This document shows positions 5,721-20,150 of a stretch of DNA of 43,287 bases, one piece after another; position 1 is the first letter of the stretch; every line of letters starts with the position of its first letter. The notes under the pieces are model-generated. The model saw nothing but the letters and a program-made list of their open reading frames with translations, made no database searches and was not told where the DNA came from. Source of the stretch: a virus; the IMG/VR virus record IMGVR_UViG_3300037070_000457, positions 1 to 43,287 of that record, one strand, 5' to 3'. A program made the translations under genes and the position numbers.

Positions 5721-6067
5721 GCACCAACCTGCCAGACGGGGGCCTGTTCGCTCAGGCCCTGGACATCCTCGACCAGCGTGGCTGGTCCCAGGGCATGATG
5801 GAGGACGCCGAAGGGCGGGTCTGCATCCTCGGGGCCTGCAACCTGGCTGCCTTCGGCAACGCCTTCGGGGCGCCCTGCGACGACACCCCCGAGGCCGACG
5901 CCGCCTACGAGGCGGAGCAGGTCATCTGGGGGCAGGTGGCCCGTGAGGTCGTCGGCTCCCGCCTGGGGGCCGTTGGCCCCTGGAACGACGACCCCACCAC
6001 CACGGTGGACGACGTCAAGCAGGCGCTAAGGCGCCTCAGCTACCTGTACGACGAGCCCGAGTCATGA
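5717..6067 (+). CDS. DUF6197-like protein
   Basis: A 116-residue protein resembling DUF6197, a family seen in actinobacteria and their phages. Matching features are ALDILDQRGWSQG near the start, a RVCILGACNLAAFG segment, and GPWNDDPTTTVDDVKQALRR near the end. The function of the family is unknown. It starts in the previous stop (ATGA) and overlaps the next gene in the same way. Confidence 0.75.
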   Translation: MSTNLPDGGLFAQALDILDQRGWSQGMMEDAEGRVCILGACNLAAFGNAFGAPCDDTPEADAAYEAEQVIWGQVAREVVGSRLGAVGPWNDDPTTTVDDVKQALRRLSYLYDEPES

Positions 6068-6279
6068 AGACGCTCGGCTTCCTCATCTTGTACGTCGGCG
6101 TGATGGCTGCGCTGATCGTCGCCGAGGGCGTCTGGGGCGTCAAGTACCCGTTCAGGGACCCCGCCCTCACGAACATCCAGCACTACAGCCAGGAGTACGG
6201 CCCGTTGGGCTACATCATCCCCGCTGTGATACTGTACGGTATCGTGTGGCTCATCAACGAGAGCAGGGAGAACCCATGA
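6064..6279 (+). CDS. Small protein with two membrane helices
   Basis: A 71-residue protein with hydrophobic helices at about residues 4-22 (LGFLILYVGVMAALIVAEG) and 47-65 (GPLGYIIPAVILYGIVWLI) and a short polar loop between. Both ends carry charges. Holins can look like this, but it lies in the early block away from the lysis cassette, so an early membrane role such as superinfection exclusion is as likely. ATGA overlaps on both sides. Confidence 0.7.
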   Translation: MKTLGFLILYVGVMAALIVAEGVWGVKYPFRDPALTNIQHYSQEYGPLGYIIPAVILYGIVWLINESRENP

Positions 6280-12727: not shown

Positions 12728-12873
12728 CGTTCGACCGAGAGACTGCCATCGAGGCAGTCGACGCCATCTTCGATGACATCGACAACGGGCGACTGGACGT
12801 AGCTACCGTGCTGCTGTTGCGTGTCGTCGTGGACCAGCTGAGTCAGCTGGTGTGGGAGCGGGAGAATGGGTAG
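12724..12873 (+). CDS. Hypothetical small acidic protein
   Basis: A 49-residue helical protein (TFDRETAIEAVDAIFDDIDN, VATVLLLRVVVDQLSQLVWE) starting at a GTG in the stop of the RusA gene and overlapping the next gene by 8 bases. It may be a small partner or adaptor. Not recognised. Confidence 0.65.
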   Translation: MTFDRETAIEAVDAIFDDIDNGRLDVATVLLLRVVVDQLSQLVWERENG

Positions 12874-13333
12874 CGCCTTCAGGGAGCGAGGCTGGACCGC
12901 CCGACTCACCGAGCTAGGCGACGAGGCCGAAGGCAAGTTCGGCGAGTACATGGAAGAGATCGGACTGGGCTTCGCCCGCTTCGGGCTCGACCGACCACCC
13001 GTTCAGGTCCACCGCCTGAGCGACTTCGTGCGGTACACCCCCGACTTCGTCACGTCGACACAGCTGGTCGAGGTGCAGGGCCACGGCCGCGAGGGCATCA
13101 CCAAGTGCAAGCTGACCAAGCTGGCAGCCCTGCTGGACTGGACCAACCTGGGCGGCATGGAGGTGTCCATGTTCCTGTGGAACAGCCACCGCCAGGTGCG
13201 GTTCATGATCCCGTTCTACGCCTACAACGACGCCATGTGCGACCGTAAGGCCCGCACCCAGGGTGCGTTCGACGACGGACGCAACCCGTGGTTCGGCGTG
13301 CCCGACACCTATTTCGATGAGTACCAGGTCTGA
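12866..13333 (+). CDS. PD-(D/E)XK-like nuclease
   Basis: A 155-residue protein resembling small phage nucleases of the PD-(D/E)XK group. Active-site candidates are TPDFV (Asp60) and LVEVQGHG (Glu69, Gln71), followed by KCKLTKLAALL. The usual catalytic Lys of ExK is Gln here, a substitution known in some active family members. An upstream GEYMEEIG segment could give the first acidic residue. It may cut branched or host DNA. It overlaps both neighbours. Confidence 0.65.
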   Translation: MGSAFRERGWTARLTELGDEAEGKFGEYMEEIGLGFARFGLDRPPVQVHRLSDFVRYTPDFVTSTQLVEVQGHGREGITKCKLTKLAALLDWTNLGGMEVSMFLWNSHRQVRFMIPFYAYNDAMCDRKARTQGAFDDGRNPWFGVPDTYFDEYQV

Positions 13334-13764
13334 TGCACTGGCGCAAAGGACCACCCGACGAGTTCCGCTCGAAGAAGGAAGTCAGCTGGCCGCTACGCTT
13401 TGATGCGGTGGCACGCGACGACGGCTCACGCCTGGACAGCTACGACCCGCCTGGGCTGATGATGCAGGACATCCCCGAGACAGACATGGTCGCGCTCATG
13501 GAGGCCGCGCCTGGTGTCGCCGAGGCTGAGTCCCTGGTAGCCCAGCAGGAGCTACGTGAGGTCATGGCCCACGCCTGGGAGCAGATGGACCCGCGTGAGC
13601 AGTGGGTGTTGGGCGCATCGCTCAACAGGAGCATGAGCCTGCGGGCGATTGCGACGGAGTTGGGGCTGTCCAAGACCCAGGTCCATCGGATCCTGGTGGC
13701 CGCGAAGCGGAACTTGGCCCTTGCGTTGGCCGACGAACCCGTGGTACAGTCTCGGCTCCGATGA
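13333..13764 (+). CDS. Sigma-region-4-like DNA-binding protein
   Basis: A 143-residue protein whose C-terminal half (about 85-135) matches the helix-turn-helix of sigma-70 region 4: QMDPREQWVLGASLNRSMSL then RAIATELGLSKTQVHRILVA. The N-terminal half is different and acidic and has no region 2, so it cannot by itself recognise a -10 element as a full sigma does. It could recruit host RNA polymerase to phage promoters or act as an anti- or accessory sigma. TGATG overlap with the gene before. Confidence 0.75.
   Translation: MHWRKGPPDEFRSKKEVSWPLRFDAVARDDGSRLDSYDPPGLMMQDIPETDMVALMEAAPGVAEAESLVAQQELREVMAHAWEQMDPREQWVLGASLNRSMSLRAIATELGLSKTQVHRILVAAKRNLALALADEPVVQSRLR
13721..13750 (+). promoter_or_regulatory. 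Promoter at the end of the sigma-like gene, giving a leaderless mRNA
   Basis: TTGCGT (13721-13726), 18 bases, TACAGT (13745-13750), with TGG before the TA box. The next start codon, ATG 13761, is 11 bases after the -10, so the transcript would begin at or within a few bases of it. Leaderless mRNAs are common in actinobacteria. Confidence 0.5.
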
Positions 13765-13898
13765 TCACCGAACGATGTGCCTCATGCCAACCCGACCTCG
13801 ACGACTGGCGTTCCGTGTCCAGTCGCGAAGCGAGCGCCACGCTGCGTGACAGCTGGTGCGAGCACTGCTGGGGGCCCGCCCCCAAGGAGAACAGCTGA
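13761..13898 (+). CDS. Small zinc-ribbon protein
   Basis: A 45-residue protein with CASC near the N-terminus and CEHC near the C-terminus, a four-Cys zinc ribbon. ATG at 13761 overlaps the preceding stop, and it may also be made from a leaderless mRNA. No ribosome site is evident. It contains the TCGC-GAA-GCGA hairpin. Not recognised. Confidence 0.7.
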   Translation: MITERCASCQPDLDDWRSVSSREASATLRDSWCEHCWGPAPKENS

Positions 13899-14080
13899 TG
13901 GACTATGACACCCAACCACCCCCGACCGTGGGCACCACCGTGCCCGCCTCACCCGTGACCACCCAGTCCCAGCCGCTGGCCGCGACGGGGCTCGACCCGA
14001 TCATCCTCATCCTCGCCATCACCTTCCTGGCCCTCGGCATCGCCGTGGTCGCCTCGGTCAAGGGGCTCGGACGCAAGTGA
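13898..14080 (+). CDS. Membrane peptide with LAATG sorting-like signal
   Basis: A 60-residue protein. AAGGAG at 13884-13889 is 8 bases before the ATG at 13898. The N-terminal 30 residues are Pro/Thr/Ser-rich (TQPPPTVGTTVPASPVTTQS), then QPLAATG, then one membrane helix (DPIILILAITFLALGIAVVA) and a basic tail KGLGRK. This order, LAxTG then helix then basic residues, matches cell-wall sorting signals used by class E sortases in actinobacteria. There is no N-terminal signal peptide, so export is unexplained. It may be an outward-facing anchor that alters the envelope, or the LAATG could be chance in a plain single-pass protein. Confidence 0.75.
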   Translation: MDYDTQPPPTVGTTVPASPVTTQSQPLAATGLDPIILILAITFLALGIAVVASVKGLGRK

Positions 14081-14526
14081 GCGAGGTGCGGATCACCGAC
14101 CCGAACACGGGTGGGGCCAAGGGCCAGAAGCTGGAGCGCATGGACCTGCTCCCGTGGGACGCACTACTCGTGGTCGCCAACCACTACGGGGTGGGCGCCT
14201 CCAAGTACGAGGACCGCAACTGGGAGCGAGGCTACGCCTGGAGCCTGAGCTTCGGTGCCATGCAGCGGCACCTGGCGGCGTGGTGGCAGGGCGAGGACCT
14301 CGACGACGAGACGGGCACCAGCCACCTGGCTGCCGCCGCCTTCCATGTCCTGGCGCTGATCGCCTACCAGGAGCGGGAGACGGGGACGGACGACCGCCCC
14401 GCCCGTCGCCCCCTGCCCGACCCCGCCAAGGTGGCCCGCCAGCTGGAGGCGTTCGAGGACGCTGAGTGGCGCCGCCAGTTCCGTGTGTCGCCGTGGTCAC
14501 CCGACCGTCTGTACCGAGGCGTCTGA
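14077..14526 (+). CDS. dATP/dGTP diphosphohydrolase-domain protein (DUF5664-like)
   Basis: A 149-residue protein with the conserved phage pattern GGAKGQKLERMDLLPWDAL, VVANHYGVGASKYEDRNWE, LSFGAMQRHLAAWWQGEDLD and SHLAAAAFHVLALIAY. The His, Glu and Asp residues in these segments fit a metal-dependent all-alpha nucleotide hydrolase. Some phages use such enzymes to shape nucleotide pools. GTGA overlap with the gene before and TGATG with the gene after. Confidence 0.85.
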   Translation: MSEVRITDPNTGGAKGQKLERMDLLPWDALLVVANHYGVGASKYEDRNWERGYAWSLSFGAMQRHLAAWWQGEDLDDETGTSHLAAAAFHVLALIAYQERETGTDDRPARRPLPDPAKVARQLEAFEDAEWRRQFRVSPWSPDRLYRGV

Positions 14527-16777: not shown

Positions 16778-17175
16778 TGGTCATCGCTGACTACCCCGCA
16801 CGCTGCATCGTGTGGGTGTTGTCCACCCAGGCCGCTGGGGTCGAGCGCATGGCGCTCGGCCTCCAGCACCTGGTGCGCTGGTACGGCCTGACGCACGAGG
16901 TCACCAAGGTGTGCGTCGAGATCGACTGGGACACGGCGACACTCACGCACGAGTTCTACGAGGGCGAGTGGTCGTCGCCCGACGAGCACGACTACGCGCT
17001 GGTGGTCAACTGCCAGCTGTGGCCTGAGGGTCGCGAGGAGGATGCGGTCGACCGCACCATCGGCATGAACCTGAGTAGCGACGTACGCCTGGCAGGTGCC
17101 GTACAAGGCATCCTAGCCGCTGACCCAACCCTGGCGGAGTCATTCATCGACCGCGTGATGGTCTTCGAGGGCTAG
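16777..17175 (+). CDS. Hypothetical protein, last plus-strand gene
   Basis: A 132-residue protein. ATG at 16777 is preferred to GTG 16774 because it is 13 bases from GAGG. Mixed fold (YPARCIVWVLSTQ, VCVEIDWDTATLTHEFYEGE) with a helical C-terminal half. Its stop overlaps the stop of the convergent minus-strand gene (17172). Not recognised. Confidence 0.7.
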   Translation: MVIADYPARCIVWVLSTQAAGVERMALGLQHLVRWYGLTHEVTKVCVEIDWDTATLTHEFYEGEWSSPDEHDYALVVNCQLWPEGREEDAVDRTIGMNLSSDVRLAGAVQGILAADPTLAESFIDRVMVFEG

Positions 17176-17390
17176 CTGGACTGGGCTTCGATCTCCGCGC
17201 GTGCCGCTTGCCACGCAGAGAAGTGCCCGATCACCACGGCGTAGACAGACACCCACACCACGAACGCCAGCGAGTTCGCCAGCAGGATGCAGATGGGCAC
17301 CGCCAGGATGAACCACACTACGGTTGCCCATCCGTGGAACTTGCGCTGACTCTTCGGGTTCCCGAGGAACCTAGAAACCGCGGAAGCCAC
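17172..17390 (-). CDS. Small membrane protein, last gene of the late block
   Basis: A 72-residue protein with two hydrophobic helices (WATVVWFILAVPICILLANS and LAFVVWVSVYAVVIGHFSA) and a short acidic tail. GTG start, 20-base overlap with the upstream gene. With the amidase nearby it could belong to the lysis system (holin or holin partner). It is not recognised beyond that. Confidence 0.65.
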   Translation of the reverse strand: MASAVSRFLGNPKSQRKFHGWATVVWFILAVPICILLANSLAFVVWVSVYAVVIGHFSAWQAARAEIEAQSS

Positions 17391-17884: not shown

Positions 17885-18061
17885 TCAGGTGGGCTCGTTG
17901 CGCACGGCGTACACGCCGAGGGCGGTGGCCACGGCGACAGCCAGGGTCAGCCACTCGGCCGAGGTGACTGCCTCGGGGGCGGACACCACGACCGCAGCGA
18001 CCCAGCCGAGCACGGCTGTGACGATGGCGGCGATGGTCTTGGAGTACGGTCCGAAGCTCAT
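17885..18061 (-). CDS. Holin-like small membrane protein
   Basis: A 58-residue protein. It starts SFGPYSKTIAAIVTAVLGW, has a second helix around EWLTLAVAVATALGVYAVR, and ends in a short polar tail (NEPT). Two helices, small size and location next to an amidase fit an actinophage holin. ATG overlaps the previous gene's stop (TGATG), and its stop is one base before the next start. Confidence 0.7.
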   Translation of the reverse strand: MSFGPYSKTIAAIVTAVLGWVAAVVVSAPEAVTSAEWLTLAVAVATALGVYAVRNEPT

Positions 18062-18564: not shown

Positions 18565-18688
18565 GATGGGCTCCTTCGTGTTGGTCCACCTCGGCGGGGG
18601 TGCCGAGAGGTCTGCAGTCTCGCTCGATGTCAGCCAGTAGCTCCTGCATCCAGCGATCGTCTTCGTCGGGCACGAGGTTGTCCCTCAT
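18557..18688 (-). CDS. Hypothetical 43-residue protein
   Basis: A 43-residue acidic peptide (MRDNLVPDEDDRWMQELLAD, then IERDCRPLGTPAEVDQHEGA) that starts in the amidase stop (ATGA overlap) and ends 8 bases inside the next gene. It has no recognised family, but the coupling at both ends supports it. It is distinct from the overlapping shadow frames on the other strand. Confidence 0.6.
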   Translation of the reverse strand: MRDNLVPDEDDRWMQELLADIERDCRPLGTPAEVDQHEGAHRG

Positions 18689-19353
18689 GGCTTGTTGGGC
18701 ACGCTCGGCGTGCCCCCCAGGTCCCGCACGACGCGGTTGGCCGCGTTCGTGATGTCGGCGTTGAGTTCCTTGCGGAGCTTCTCGAAGTCATCCTTCTGGA
18801 TGGCATCGACCCCCGCGATGACTCTGAGGATGTCTCCGTCCGTCACGGGTGCTCCTTTGTTGTAGGTTCCTGCCACGGCTGGCAGGACGATCTGCTTGAA
18901 CTGTTCGATCCGCCTGGGCCCAGGACAGATCTTGGCGACCTGGTGCCACTCGCGGAACTGGATGTGGTAGCCGAACCCGTAGCCGTCCCACGTCGGCGTG
19001 GCACAGCGGGGGACGTCGTACTCGACGGCGTACCAGTCCAGCAGGCGTGTCAGCGTGGCGACCTGCGCGGGGGTCCAGGGCTCCAGCCCAGTCCCCACCG
19101 TCTCCACACTGGCATAGAAGTTGTTGGCCTTGTAGTTGGCGTCGGCCCTCTCGGCCGCGCCCATGTACTGGACCAGGGTCCCGTCTAGCCCCAGCCCGAA
19201 GGTGGACTCCAGGTTGGAGGACGAGTTGAAGTAGGCCCAGGGGTCACTTAGACCACCCGTGGAGTGGACGACCAGTCCACGGACGTGGATGGTCGGCTGC
19301 TGCTCGGGCAGGCGGTGCTGCACGGCCCAGGGGACGGAGTCAGGTCCTGGCAT
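18685..19353 (-). CDS. N-acetylmuramoyl-L-alanine amidase (endolysin)
   Basis: A 222-residue amidase_2/PGRP-type endolysin. GLVVHSTGG gives zinc ligand His30; the second site is FREWHQVAKICPGPRR, with His137 and Cys143 as the other ligands. It cleaves the bond between muramic acid and L-alanine in peptidoglycan to free progeny. The C-terminal 50 residues are a helical tail, not a recognised wall-binding domain. ATG at 19353 is in a TGATG overlap with the short upstream ORF. It is surrounded by small membrane proteins. Confidence 0.85.
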   Translation of the reverse strand: MPGPDSVPWAVQHRLPEQQPTIHVRGLVVHSTGGLSDPWAYFNSSSNLESTFGLGLDGTLVQYMGAAERADANYKANNFYASVETVGTGLEPWTPAQVATLTRLLDWYAVEYDVPRCATPTWDGYGFGYHIQFREWHQVAKICPGPRRIEQFKQIVLPAVAGTYNKGAPVTDGDILRVIAGVDAIQKDDFEKLRKELNADITNAANRVVRDLGGTPSVPNKP

Positions 19354-19437: not shown

Positions 19438-19824
19438 TCACTCAGGCGCCTTGACGGGGGGGAACCGCTCCAGGCAGCTGTTGTACGCTGCCAGCAGCTC
19501 GCCCACCTCGTAGGTGTCCTGGATGGCATCGTCGTACGCCTTGGCGAAGGCGTCCTGGCGGCAGGACGACAACCGTCGGTCCTGGCGGACCGCCTCAGTC
19601 ACCCGCTCGAACTTCTGGCCCAGGTCCTCGACGGCCCTGTTGCGGGCCACCAGGGCCGCGCTCAGGAAGAACACGACGAACGTCAGTACGATGCTGAGGA
19701 CCACGGCCCCAGCTGCCAGCTTCTCGGCCAGGCTGCGGCGTCTGTCGTTCTCGACGACACGCTGCTCCAGTGCCTCCAAGTCCACGACGCGGCCTTGTGC
19801 GGCCTCCAGATCTGCGACCATCAC
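19438..19824 (-). CDS. Coiled-coil membrane protein
   Basis: A 128-residue protein: an N-terminal helix (DLEAAQGRVVDLEALEQRVV), one membrane helix (AAGAVVLSIVLTFVVFFLSA at about 37-57), then a helical domain with two Cys (LSSCRQDAF, YNSCLER). GTG at 19824 is 8 bases from GGGAG; an ATG at 19821 is the alternative. It could be a lysis accessory such as a holin partner or spanin-like protein. GTGATG overlap with the gene before. Confidence 0.7.
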   Translation of the reverse strand: MMVADLEAAQGRVVDLEALEQRVVENDRRRSLAEKLAAGAVVLSIVLTFVVFFLSAALVARNRAVEDLGQKFERVTEAVRQDRRLSSCRQDAFAKAYDDAIQDTYEVGELLAAYNSCLERFPPVKAPE

Positions 19825-20150
19825 AGCAACTTCTCCCTGCGGACGTATTCCAGGATGGCCCTCGTTACACCCTGTGCCAGCTTGTCCGCAAACTCTGACT
19901 CCAGGAAAGCGATCCTGGCCTCGTGCTGCTCCGCCAGATGGCGGTACTCCTGCGCGGTCTGCAGGGCCTGCTCGACCTCCGCCTTGCGCGCCTCTGCGAT
20001 GTCCTTGTAGATCTGGGCGACCTGCTCACGCTTCTTGCCCACCAGCCCGAAGGCGGCGGAGAAGCCGCCCGCCACACCCAGAACCAGGGTGATCAGGGAC
20101 GTCAGCGTGAAGCCGATCTCTTGTGCGGCTGCCACCAGGATGGCGATCAT
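19821..20150 (-). CDS. Membrane protein with coiled-coil tail
   Basis: A 109-residue protein: a hydrophobic N-terminal region (FTLTSLITLVLGVAGGFSAA), a basic turn (GKKREQVAQ), then a long helix (YKDIAEARKAEVEQALQTAQ). This single-pass plus coiled-coil layout is seen in phage holins and in lysis-cassette proteins. It follows the long virion gene with an ATGA overlap. Function is inferred only from topology and position. Confidence 0.65.
   Translation of the reverse strand: MIAILVAAAQEIGFTLTSLITLVLGVAGGFSAAFGLVGKKREQVAQIYKDIAEARKAEVEQALQTAQEYRHLAEQHEARIAFLESEFADKLAQGVTRAILEYVRREKLL

Follow-up and report, generated by a model that had tools for sequence, protein, structure and literature searches.

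Does a phage gene that sets the pentapeptide LAATG beside a membrane helix encode a substrate for a host sortase, or is the motif there by accident? The gene, P0001, lies at 13898-14080 on the plus strand of the IMG/VR virus record IMGVR_UViG_3300037070_000457, whose 43,287 bases, the whole stretch analyzed, are called the window here. An original prediction made from the sequence had described its product as a phage peptide with a wall-sorting-like signal. Our analysis leans, by a modest degree, towards the second answer: a podovirus-like actinobacterial phage would make P0001 as a lineage-specific accessory membrane peptide, displayed with its N-terminus outside the cell (N-out), in which LAATG is probably incidental.

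Coding signals, anatomy, and predicted display of P0001

The window at 13898-14080 (+) translates to MDYDTQPPPTVGTTVPASPVTTQSQPLAATGLDPIILILAITFLALGIAVVASVKGLGRK, a 60-residue product, at exactly the coordinates originally given. The sequence has a Shine-Dalgarno (SD) element, AAGGAG (13884-13889, +), 8 nt upstream of the ATG. The start codon overlaps the stop of an upstream open reading frame (ORF) of 45 codons (TGATG), and the downstream gene, which encodes a dATP/dGTP pyrophosphohydrolase, begins with a GTG that shares bases with the P0001 stop (GTGA). GC content at codon positions 1/2/3 was 0.65/0.52/0.92 in P0001 versus 0.73/0.49/0.91 in the pyrophosphohydrolase gene. Because of the ribosome-binding site AAGGAG and the overlaps with both neighboring genes, it is very likely that P0001 is a genuine gene and translationally coupled. 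With a start at the in-frame GTG at 13856, the product would have 74 residues, but this codon lacks the SD and overlap context of the ATG. RNA structure at the start of P0001 was not better than that of shuffled sequences.

The protein consists of a stalk rich in Pro, Thr, Ser, and Gln (residues 1-26), LAATG (residues 27-31; codons ctggccgcgacgggg, 13976-13990, +, read from the sequence and translation), the residues LDP, a helix at 34-57, and a basic end, KGLGRK (55-60). AlphaFold2, run on the single sequence, modeled residues 1-33 as low-confidence coil (pLDDT about 60) and residues 34-57 as one helix (pLDDT up to 94), which is strongly hydrophobic (mean Kyte-Doolittle above 3). The charge is -3 on the N-terminal side of the helix, from acidic residues only, and +3 on the C-terminal side, from basic residues only. 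P0001 has no signal peptide: its start, MDYDTQPPP, is acidic and Pro-rich, with neither a basic n-region nor an h-region before the helix. It also has no folded cargo domain. The translation and the model bear out the anatomy first proposed, a stalk, LAATG, one helix, and a basic end, and reading of the sequence agrees with the claim that signal peptide and folded domain are both missing. Matches to Pfam DUF6311 (E 0.13) and phrog_15109 (E 0.0034) were weak, fell on low-complexity or transmembrane (TM) segments, and were not used.

One strong helix with an acidic N-side and a basic C-side is the pattern of single-pass proteins with the N-terminus outside and the C-terminus inside (N-out/C-in). 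By the positive-inside rule, because acidic residues precede the helix and basic residues follow it, P0001 is expected to take the N-out/C-in orientation and to need no signal peptide for insertion. In the reading that we favor, the peptide would be made from an early/middle operon and its single helix would most likely insert with the acidic, Pro/Thr-rich N-tail of 33 residues outside and KGLGRK inside, no signal being cleaved. While infection proceeds, P0001 would then act by display on the outer side of the host membrane, where its targets might be envelope transport, or the adsorption or injection of rival phages. LAATG would probably be a by-product of a stalk end containing Leu, Ala, Thr, and Gly, and display would not need it. 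Small membrane proteins are ordinary in this phage, since several other small membrane ORFs occur in the window (6064-6279, 17172-17390, 17885-18061, 19438-19824, and 19821-20150).

Relatives of P0001 and the status of LAATG

The search for P0001 homologues in the phage collection, plasmids, IMG/VR viral contigs, 84,980 species genomes, and 23 related records found none, with the limit that distant homologues could be missed: the viral-contig and genome-contig scans require an exact 8-residue match, and the search of the 23 related records had no positive control. Consequently, these collections offered no homologue that keeps LAATG, one of the kinds of evidence by which the original prediction was to be judged. 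A DnaB-based scan for nearer relatives also found none. One 11.3-kb contig, L009 (IMGVR_UViG_3300037071_000086), has a portal 100% identical to that of the window, and, given its length and where the match lies, it is not expected to extend to 13898.

The position that P0001 occupies is variable among related contigs. A nuclease-like gene followed by a gene coding for sigma region 4 only (window 12866-13764) forms a two-gene module kept in dozens of viral contigs with a GC content of 0.44-0.67, including L150, L157, L166, L213, and L227; neither protein was named beyond a weak helix-turn-helix (HTH) match. In L003, nothing separates the sigma-like and dATP/dGTP pyrophosphohydrolase ORFs, which overlap, and the slot in L194 is likewise empty. 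In L150, the ORF directly after the sigma-like one has the pyrophosphohydrolase as its C-terminal part, and in L091 the slot is filled by an unrelated 70-residue protein with two TM helices (5735-5947). This variable slot, together with the lack of homologues, suggests that P0001 was probably a local acquisition, and gives no evolutionary sign of selection on LAATG. The fused ORF of L150 (1213-2094) has an unidentified N-terminal part (YYISGPMRGYP...) that resembles ORFs in L002 (2830-3576) and L091 (6742-7230).

How unusual the position of LAATG is was assessed with a set of mechanical ORFs (22,177 unique) taken from related phage loci; the set is redundant, as it includes many PA6-type phages. 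A C-terminal TM was present in 689 of them, and 135 of the 689 were coding-like. None of the 689 had L[PA]xTG adjoining the helix, where shuffling led us to expect 0.26 (all) and 0.08 (coding-like). When the 33 pre-helix residues of P0001 itself were shuffled, L[PA]xTG arose at this position in 0.37% of cases and LAxTG in 0.10%. The placement is unusual for one pre-chosen protein; it is not decisive, and is expected occasionally across a large scan with many motifs. With the looser motif [LI][PA]x[TS][GA], four coding-like matches were obtained versus 0.7 expected; these were on the minus strand in similar PA6-type phages and were rejected as sorting signals.

The alternative that survives best, although we consider it doubtful, is that P0001 is a genuine minimal substrate of class E sortase. 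LAxTG is the signal recognized by class E sortases, which are found in soil and freshwater actinobacteria (PMC5148588), and LAATG at residues 27-31 conforms to it. Sortase substrates in Actinoplanes were listed by the motif, a TM, and consecutive basic residues (PMC13251363); the P0001 tail, with its helix at 34-57 and terminal RK, has this form. N-out insertion would make LAATG face outward, within possible reach of a sortase, so that the missing signal peptide would not be fatal, and the host is probably actinobacterial (see below). The host enzyme, SrtE, would cut between T30 and G31, and the Pro/Thr-rich N-tail of 30 residues would join lipid II and hence the wall, which would be coated against rival phages, or the sortase would be occupied.

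Against this alternative, P0001 has neither the signal peptide nor the cargo domain of a substrate. It gave no match at E<=10 to any NCBIfam model, and PF00746 had no match anywhere in the window; because the curated sortase-anchor models are short and for the most part built on LPxTG, a miss is weak evidence. The window contains no sortase gene. No homologue shows selection on LAATG, and the gene slot is not conserved. The fully specified version, in which the phage encodes an N-out SrtE substrate without a signal peptide, whose wall-linked peptide of 30 residues alters the surface or diverts SrtE during infection, seems to us slightly less probable again. The superinfection blocking and sortase diversion originally suggested for P0001 found no support. 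Some points weigh against the reading that we favor: its topology is predicted and its host deduced indirectly, the full LAATG-helix-basic arrangement is absent from the 689 other ORFs with a C-terminal TM, and a class E sorting signal is closely matched by LAATG and its spacer of 3 residues, by the TM length, and by the basic end.

Gene neighborhood and host

P0001 is located in an early/middle operon with the nuclease-like, sigma-like, Cys-rich, and dATP/dGTP pyrophosphohydrolase genes. The nuclease-like protein (12866-13333, +), for which "nuclease" is a working label as it has no Pfam match, anchors the module conserved in relatives. The sigma-like HTH protein (13333-13764, +) has only region 4 of a sigma factor (E 7.6e-05, slightly under the cut-off for the family). 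The 45-residue Cys-rich ORF (13761-13898, +; CxxC...CxxC, a possible zinc ribbon, no Pfam match) overlaps both neighbors, the sigma-like gene through ATGA and P0001 at its other end. The pyrophosphohydrolase (14077-14526, +) matches PF18909 (2.1e-33) and phrog_801. It is also matched by phrog_2252 and phrog_5033, labeled "endolysin; inhibits RNA polymerase", which is probably a misnomer where this domain is concerned. The genes ahead of the one at 12866 encode a DnaB-like helicase, an AEP primase, and a PD-(D/E)XK nuclease. Structural proteins are encoded on the minus strand, and the portal and terminase are podovirus-like and related to MW202803 (42%).

The host is likely an actinobacterium, because the endolysin matches in the phage collection (ten records) were Streptomyces or Brevibacterium phages only, the pyrophosphohydrolase matches were mostly actinophage, and relatives carry an Rpf-type domain. 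The last is the transglycosylase-like domain PF06737 (tested for L213) in a Thr-rich stalk membrane protein encoded downstream of the sigma-like gene in L213 (8065-8538) and L193 (5625-6107). Two further indicators of the host were set aside. An L5 gp82 homologue pointed to no single host group, its best matches being alphaproteobacterial phages, and the sole portal match among genome contigs, L149 (PAYF01000019.1), is a phage contig of this portal family in a marine metagenome-assembled genome labeled Euryarchaeota, where it is probably mis-binned.

A role for P0001 inside the bilayer or at its cytoplasmic face, for example as a lysis regulator or as a membrane tether for the products of the nucleotide-metabolism or replication genes to which it is coupled, is improbable. 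Its translational coupling to the pyrophosphohydrolase gene and the DnaB and primase genes upstream are consistent with such a role; however, the model leaves only about 3-6 residues on the cytoplasmic side, the amidase (18685-19353) and the small TM ORFs beside it (holin candidates) are grouped elsewhere, and the pyrophosphohydrolase genes of other phages mostly have no membrane neighbor. That the ORF is not translated at all is very hard to accept: the lack of homologues in every collection searched would agree with it, but the SD, the start and stop overlaps on both sides, and a codon-position GC resembling that of neighboring genes argue otherwise.

Comparison with known systems

A search of the open-access literature brought up no phage protein of this type, in line with the original remark that none was known to its author. 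P0001 would appear to be an orphan of a common kind, the small phage membrane proteins, carrying a possible sorting signal. If LAATG works, the phage would label the wall from the inside with the wall-anchoring enzyme of its own host, and N-out insertion would bring a protein to sortase without a signal peptide. If it is incidental, as we favor, P0001 is one more orphan of this kind and shows the ease with which a five-residue motif arises beside a helix.

Three known groups resemble the peptide in part. The known class E substrates, among them the chaplins ChpA-C of Streptomyces, depend on an N-terminal signal peptide for secretion and contain a protein domain. P0001 shares with them the LAxTG, a short spacer, a hydrophobic helix, a basic C-terminus, and probably an actinobacterial host; unlike them, it has no signal peptide and no domain, and it matches no anchor family. 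In PA6-type phages (gp39) and in L091 (5735-5947), a small membrane protein is likewise encoded close upstream of the pyrophosphohydrolase gene; unlike P0001, these proteins have two helices, no LAxTG, and no evident sequence similarity to it. A general link between this enzyme and a small membrane neighbor was checked across phages and dropped. The coat protein of Pf3 crosses the membrane with a short acidic N-tail and no cleaved signal, and adopts the N-out/C-in orientation. P0001 resembles it in layout, with a short acidic N-tail, one helix, a basic C-end, and no signal peptide. The Pf3 protein, however, is a virion component of a filamentous phage, whereas P0001 comes from a tailed phage and is encoded in an early/middle operon.
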